DNA of 64,000 nt from Desulfoscipio sp. XC116 (GTDB lineage: Bacteria > Bacillota > Desulfotomaculia > Desulfotomaculales > Desulfallaceae), in assembly GCF_039851975.1 (NCBI RefSeq), contig NZ_CP156660.1:2547035-2611034 (forward strand), in the 5' to 3' direction. This document shows, piece by piece, positions 1,691 to 3,018 of the stretch. Within the stretch, counting starts at the first letter, position 1. Each line of letters begins with the position of its first letter. The position numbers were made by a program, and so were the translations under genes. The notes below the pieces were generated by a model, which was not told the DNA's origin, searched no databases, and saw only the letters and a program-made list of their open reading frames with translations.

Positions 1691-2287
1691 CTATTGGTAA
1701 ACGCTCAAGGCCCTTTGAAATACTTGATATGACTGGGCGCCCACCAGCCTTTTCTTATCATTGATGATAAATGCAGGTACAGCCGTGATCTCGTATTGCC
1801 GGGCCAATTCCCGCGCCTTTTGCAAGCGCGGCAAAAAAGGCTGTTTATCCAGCGTTTCCATTAGTTCATCTTCATTTAAGCCAATCTCTTTAAACAACTT
1901 GATAAGCACCTGTTTATCGCCGATATTCATTTCCTCTTGAAAATAAGCTTTAAACAGCCGGGCATGTGCTTGTTCATATTTTCCTTTGTCCCGGGCAAAT
2001 TCGCTGGCCTGCAGCGCCAGACATGAATTGGCCACGAGATTCATGCCACTAAAATTAATCCCGTAGGGTTTACCGGCCCGCCGAAAGTTTTCCAACATCT
2101 TATCTATATCCACATCGGGAAACAAATCCTTAATAAGCTTTCCTTCGGGCGGTGTTTCAGGATGCAACTCATAACCAACCCACTCCTCGGCAATGTCAAA
2201 TTCCTGCTTCAATTTTTCGACAATACCTTTGCCGATATAGCAAAAAGGTCATACATAATCTGAAAGAATAGTCATTTTAATCGCCAT
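1691..2287 (-). CDS. DsbA/FrnE-like thiol oxidoreductase, candidate selenoprotein (UGA = Sec13)
   Basis: Read through one in-frame UGA, this is a 198-residue thioredoxin-fold protein of the DsbA/FrnE (2-hydroxychromene-carboxylate isomerase-like) family. The start is ATG at 2287, 10 nt after GGAGG (2298-2302). The N-terminus reads MAIKMTILSDYV-U-PFCYIGKG, so the UGA (2251-2249) sits exactly where the family has the first Cys of its CPxC active site; Cys16 is intact. The cis-Pro region (AVPAFIINDKK) is near the C-terminus. Without readthrough, the only start is a TTG at 2212 with no ribosome site, and the active site would be lost. A hairpin matching the bacterial SECIS pattern follows the UGA. 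The alternative is a nonsense pseudogene, but the rest of the frame is undamaged. Confidence 0.8.
2218..2234 (-). promoter_or_regulatory. Candidate bacterial SECIS element
   Basis: In the mRNA, 14 nt after the UGA, CGGCAA pairs with UUGUCG (one G-U pair, extendable by one U-A pair) around the loop AGGUA. The apical loop begins about 20 nt after the UGA and carries GGU, as in the E. coli fdhF SECIS loop recognised by SelB. Distance and loop agree with the published bacterial SECIS rules (loop 16-37 nt downstream, G in the first two loop positions). Not folded computationally. Confidence 0.65.
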
Positions 2288-2410
2288 TGTTATAAAACCT
2301 CCAAACAAATGTGAATCAAGTCAAACCAGTATGCCTAAAGTATAACATTTAAAGCGCATAAATCCAAAGTTATTCATTCATTACACCAAATCACTAAAAC
2401 ATCTGGTCTT

Positions 2411-2448
2411 AAAAAACAAAAAAGGGCAGGGGATACAGTCACCTGCCC
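2411..2448 (-). terminator. Intrinsic terminator of the carbonic-anhydrase-like gene
   Basis: On the minus strand a 7-bp stem GGGCAGG/CCTGCCC with an 11-nt loop is followed by a T-rich tail (TTTTTTGTTTTTT). Confidence 0.85.
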
Positions 2449-2478: not shown

Positions 2479-3018
2479 TTATTCCCTAATTAAATATAAA
2501 AGTTTATCATCTATACCGTAAAACATGGGTACCACCAAAATCTTAGGATAACGTAGACGTAACCTTTGGGCTTCGCTAATAACAAAATCCATTTCATTTA
2601 CAATCTCAAACATAGGTACGAAATGCATAAAGTGTTCTTCAGCCAGCTTTTTGTCCCAGCCCGCGTTTTCCACCAATCCCCGCACAAATTTATCCTTGCG
2701 GGCCATTAAGTTTACCATGCCGCATTTATCATGGCCGATTAAAGCAACAGCCTTAACTCCCCCAACAGCTATGGCATATGATAATTTAAACTCACTATAA
2801 CGGAGATTGCCCCCGCCGGTGCGCAGCACATAGGCAAAGTTATCGGGTATGCGTAAGTGTTTACGGTTATCCATACACATACCGATTAGCAATTCCGCAT
2901 GCTCATAGCTATGCAGTGGATATTGCAGGTTATGGTATTGAAGTAAGCGACCGATGGGAGTATCACGATACTGGGGGAAAATATCACCAACAGAACGAAT
3001 CGGCACCAGGTTATCCAT
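2479..3018 (-). CDS. Beta-class carbonic-anhydrase-like protein
   Basis: A 179-residue protein with the beta-carbonic-anhydrase zinc-site signatures: CMDNR (Cys48, Asp50, Arg52), RTGGG at 66-70 and GHDKCG (His96, Cys99). Cys48/His96/Cys99 would be the zinc ligands, with the Asp50-Arg52 dyad gating the site. Beta-CAs interconvert CO2 and bicarbonate in the cytosol. The usual family length is 190-220, so this is a short form, and divergent members may have other activities. GGGAGG precedes the ATG by 7 nt. It is a single gene with its own terminator. Confidence 0.75.
   Translation of the reverse strand: MDNLVPIRSVGDIFPQYRDTPIGRLLQYHNLQYPLHSYEHAELLIGMCMDNRKHLRIPDNFAYVLRTGGGNLRYSEFKLSYAIAVGGVKAVALIGHDKCGMVNLMARKDKFVRGLVENAGWDKKLAEEHFMHFVPMFEIVNEMDFVISEAQRLRLRYPKILVVPMFYGIDDKLLYLIRE

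Follow-up and report, generated by a model that had tools for sequence, protein, structure and literature searches.

The window, by which we mean the whole 64,000-nt stretch of DNA analysed, carries on its minus strand a complete gene for a selenoprotein of the FrnE type within the DsbA family, a reading to which we give a probability of about 0.93. Selenocysteine (Sec) at residue 13 is strongly supported by computation: the reading frame, the equivalence of the codon with cysteine in homologues, a covarying hairpin, the Sec machinery of the genome and the protein fold were each computed directly, and from these we infer that Sec is actually inserted. The earlier note had placed an in-frame UGA on the first active-site position of a thiol oxidoreductase, in a frame open on both sides, with the partner cysteine, flanking residues and ribosome site intact, and both the observation and its interpretation are correct. 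With TGA read as U, the frame from 2287 to 1691 begins MAIKMTILSDYVUPFCYIGKGIV... and is 198 residues long; its only UGA is codon 13, in the context SDYV-U-PFC-YIGKG (Table 1). That standard gene callers would begin at a TTG was also foreseen: the mechanical call starts at TTG 2212, 3' of the active site, and gives a frame of 173 aa.

Table 1. Features of the selenoprotein locus, in window coordinates.
Feature	Position	Strand	Remark
Whole selenoprotein gene (198 aa), thiol oxidoreductase of DsbA/FrnE type	1691..2287	-	
In-frame UGA, selenocysteine, residue 13, position 1 of UPFC	2249..2251	-	TGC/TGT aligned there in distant homologues
Partner cysteine codon TGC, residue 16	2240..2242	-	Invariant across Sec and Cys forms
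Bacterial SECIS-type hairpin UCGGCAA-AGGUA-UUGUCGA	2217..2235	-	Begins 13 nt 3' of the UGA
Ribosome-binding site GGAGGT, 9 nt 5' of ATG 2287	2297..2302	-	Read from sequence
Terminator-like hairpin GGGCAGG...CCTGCCC with T-run, ends upstream gene	2411..2448	-	Read from sequence

When the entire window was scanned for TGA-spanning frames with a nearby cysteine, this was the sole frame with a UxxC redox motif; the other in-frame TGA candidates lack the motif and resemble chance occurrences. An Rfam scan of the whole window returned no matches. Since the upstream gene is closed by a terminator-like hairpin and T-run (with a loop that exceeds the length limit of the automatic scan), the selenoprotein gene probably forms a transcription unit of its own. 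The upstream neighbour (2479-3018, minus strand) encodes a short carbonic-anhydrase-like protein with a match to PF00484 barely above the cut-off, and its position is common to the closest relative only.

Protein family, fold and probable role

The DSBA domain of Pfam (PF01323) matches residues 8-194, across the UGA, with an E value of 1.4e-28 (100.4 bits against a gathering threshold of 25.6). As this match spans the codon, and the TGA is shared by the full-length homologues of the family and class, the gene is far beyond chance. The AlphaFold model has a mean pLDDT of 95.4 and a pTM of 0.91, and its best fold match among solved structures is FrnE of Deinococcus radiodurans (TM 0.89, E 9.2e-16). 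Structures of this protein head the fold ranking; SCO1869 comes next, and the periplasmic proteins DsbA and BdbD match far less well. FrnE is also the best match in a sequence search of the PDB (E 1.4e-16). The closest solved structure is FrnE by both sequence and fold, as expected of a member of the FrnE subfamily (cd03024/COG2761), and the DsbA/FrnE-like assignment proposed from the bare sequence is backed by the Pfam, PDB and fold searches alike.

The invariant residues include S9, D10, U/C13, P14, F15, C16 and P171, the last of which is presumed to be the cis-Pro. The protein ends at residue 198 and its last cysteine lies no later than residue 89; the C-terminal CxxxxC tail is therefore absent. 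This tail is found in many FrnE members but not all, and is not strictly defining; the FrnE proteins of S. roseofulvus and D. maricopensis likewise lack it. Two other models were considered and rejected: NF041057, which scores 47.5 bits where 190 are required and covers residues 81-194 only, so that the protein is not a member, and TIGR02187, with a score below its cut-off.

The U-P-F-C site is most likely a selenol/thiol redox couple, in which Sec13 would attack disulfides or other oxidised thiols, of protein or low-molecular-weight substrates, and Cys16 would resolve the intermediate. Higher reactivity of a UxxC site is the expected chemistry. By analogy with the Cys-containing FrnE of Deinococcus and with Lmo1059 of Listeria, we favour a role as a cytoplasmic selenol/thiol-disulfide reductase, which perhaps helps the cell to withstand thiol-oxidative or metal stress. 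FrnE proteins have been described as cytoplasmic disulfide reductases (PMC8945050), and Lmo1059, which belongs to the DsbA family, acts as a reductase of GSSG and confers protection from thiol oxidation (PMC10715225).

The alternative that deserves most weight, while being considerably less probable than a reductase, is that this is a true selenoprotein with another activity, namely that of a disulfide oxidase or isomerase, or of a metal- or selenium-handling protein. For the D. radiodurans protein (DrFrnE), which is induced by cadmium, both isomerase activity and reduction of insulin have been shown (PMC8945050), and no partner genes point either way. However, the N-terminus shows no obvious signal peptide, which suggests location in the normally reducing cytoplasm, and structural studies of DrFrnE speak for a reductase (PMC8945050). 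For the reductase role that we prefer, genomic context gives no substrate, because neighbours are not conserved: across 15 relatives, no conserved neighbour was found except between the closest ones.

The UGA codon in homologues and the selenocysteine machinery

Homologues were searched for at three taxonomic levels, in the family (16 genomes), the class (113) and the phylum (399). Every full-length homologue found within the family and class has TGA at the same codon, and more distant homologues carry TGC or TGT at exactly this place. The 54 proteins compared comprise 38 UGA forms and 16 Cys forms, and the alignment with homologues suggested in the earlier note thus finds the codon to be either UGA or Cys. 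In the tree of these proteins, the window gene falls within a clade of 29 that are all Sec forms, including some from Nitrospirota metagenome-assembled genomes (MAGs). Five changes between Sec and Cys are needed on the best tree (3-5 over bootstraps). A contig search with one protein matched four Nitrospirota MAGs only; the breadth of the family is taken from the genome searches. Relatives found in a plasmid search were all below 60% identity (best about 34%), and no second homologue was found in the window's genome.

The Sec form appears to be fixed in this lineage. A bolder reading, which we consider doubtful, is that the clade is an obligate-Sec FrnE lineage, ranging from Desulfotomaculum-type Firmicutes to Nitrospirota, with Sec never replaced by Cys in the 29 full-length members sampled. 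If true, this would suggest a reaction for which Cys is insufficient, together with a tail-less, selenol-dependent route of regeneration. Elsewhere in the tree, loci L055, L056 and L060 make up a small supported clade of one Sec and two Cys forms, where the hairpin is broken in the Cys forms, a Sec/Cys switch. Two copies are probably damaged: L044 (G029), which stops shortly 3' of the active site, and L078 (G227), which is in two pieces in the match table.

It is very improbable that no UGA-spanning protein is made, either because translation begins only at TTG 2212 or because it stops at the UGA. The mechanical frame call agrees with such a start, but the segment before the UGA contains a first strand (I-x-x-F-S-D-Y) that is conserved in all homologues, the GGAGGT motif is positioned to serve ATG 2287, and without this segment the predicted fold would lose its first strand and active-site helix.

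The window's genome (4.26 Mb in 2 contigs, 100% complete) was also examined for selA, selB, selC and selD, the genes by which the earlier note proposed to check its claim, and selA, selB, tRNA-Sec and selD are all present. The selB gene is full-length (386 bits) with selA adjacent to it, the tRNA-Sec has the anticodon tca (UCA), and there are two selD genes, each with one in-frame TGA. These two (loci L051 and L052 of genome G000) are probably themselves selenoproteins. Across the homologues, selB is present in 32 of 34 genomes with UGA forms and in 4 of 20 with Cys forms (Fisher p 2.8e-8, uncorrected for relatedness); the two UGA-form genomes without it are 84% and 57% complete. In the mechanism that we propose, the UGA would be decoded as Sec by SelB and tRNA-Sec(UCA), with insertion directed by an mRNA hairpin just 3' of the codon.

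A SECIS-type hairpin downstream of the UGA

The candidate hairpin has a stem of 7 pairs and a loop, AGGUA, that begins 20 nt 3' of the UGA. As in SECIS elements, a G stands in a small apical loop directly downstream of the UGA, and its A-G-G-U is similar to the loop in the fdhF element of E. coli. Folded singly, the hairpin of the window sequence is unremarkable (z about -0.8 to -1.4), and the case for it thus rests on conservation. Stem cells are paired in 99.5% of cases over 31 distinct sequences, in a region where the hairpin overlaps the conserved coding stretch YIGKGIVEKL and coding alone limits variation. When more divergent Sec forms are added, both sides change at pair 22-30 (A-U, G-C and C-G) and at pair 18-34 (C-G and U-A). 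At 0.284, the score for covariation is above those of all 500 shuffles (mean 0.123) and of all slid controls (at most 0.128). Sec forms keep a mean of 6.55 of the 7 pairs, as opposed to 3.56 in Cys forms, and the mean hairpin energies are -6.8 and -1.9 kcal/mol, respectively.

The stem UCGGCAA/UUGUCGA is absent in its exact form from the distant Sec forms L040, L041, L063 and L065-L067, which presumably use another hairpin. In L065, L066 and L067 (G264, G191 and G115, respectively), where UPFC is followed by M/F-IGK, a different, GGGAAAGUCCC-type hairpin is found 3' of the UGA, suggesting that the SECIS of these three arose independently or was re-shaped.

These comparisons leave hardly any room for the UGA being read as an amino acid other than Sec, whether through a Trp code or by near-cognate read-through, given that the alternative state at the codon is always Cys, that tRNA-Sec and SelB are present, and that the hairpin and selB both track the UGA. 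An artefact of sequencing, or a nonsense mutation that turned TGC or TGT into TGA in a normal Cys-type FrnE gene or in a pseudogene, might be imagined from the single base that separates these codons from TGA and from the decayed copies in some relatives (L044). Such an origin is practically ruled out, as 38 homologues from separate genomes share this TGA, which is flanked by strongly conserved sequence and accompanied by the covarying hairpin.

Relation to known selenoproteins and FrnE proteins

DsbA-like UxxC selenoproteins (COG2761) were reported from the Sargasso Sea in 2005 (PMC1088965), from complete genomes including that of Desulfotomaculum reducens, with one there, in 2006 (PMC1794560), from the GOS survey in 2008 (PMC2398784) and as two Asgard sequences in 2024 (PMC11227280), and in reviews of 2022 and 2026 they are described as predicted, with their function largely uncharacterised (PMC9312934, PMC13188914). 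The literature therefore bears out the statement, already made in the earlier note, that such proteins had been proposed in selenoproteome surveys, and the novelty is accordingly lower: the gene is a new, well-supported member of a selenoprotein family that has been predicted by computation since 2005, and not a new kind. Its value lies in correcting the annotation of a UGA-spanning gene that gene callers miss, in enlarging a so far purely computational family by about 30 well-supported members that come with a covarying SECIS-type hairpin, and in making the function of a selenium-based FrnE testable in a relative of sulfate reducers.

The protein has the same domain as form 1 of the DsbA-like selenoproteins (PF01323/COG2761), the same Sec at the first position of UxxC and a bacterial SECIS-type hairpin, and D. 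reducens, a relative, is among the listed carriers of that form; its subgroup identity with the published members is judged from domain, motif and host. The genome of our locus L039 is presumably that of D. reducens MI-1, the strain with one reported DsbA-like selenoprotein. A thioredoxin-fold relative that has either Sec or Cys is the Rcas_1661 thioredoxin-like selenolipoprotein of NCBIfam (NF041057), the selenoprotein that the 2026 review calls "DsbG-like".

With the periplasmic oxidases DsbA and BdbD the protein shares a thioredoxin fold, an inserted helical domain, the position of the CxxC motif at the start of helix 1 and a cis-Pro loop; it differs from them in its weaker fold match (TM about 0.55-0.65), in the apparent lack of a signal peptide, and in that no DsbB-type partner was found nearby. 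Closest among solved structures is D. radiodurans FrnE (DR_0659; PDB 5cnw, 5co3, 5coh, 5cp1 and 5xwh), a predicted cytoplasmic protein with a CP(W/F)C active site in the same place. At about 27% identity to it, the protein of the window has Sec in place of the first Cys and lacks the CxxxxC tail by which DrFrnE regenerates its active site.
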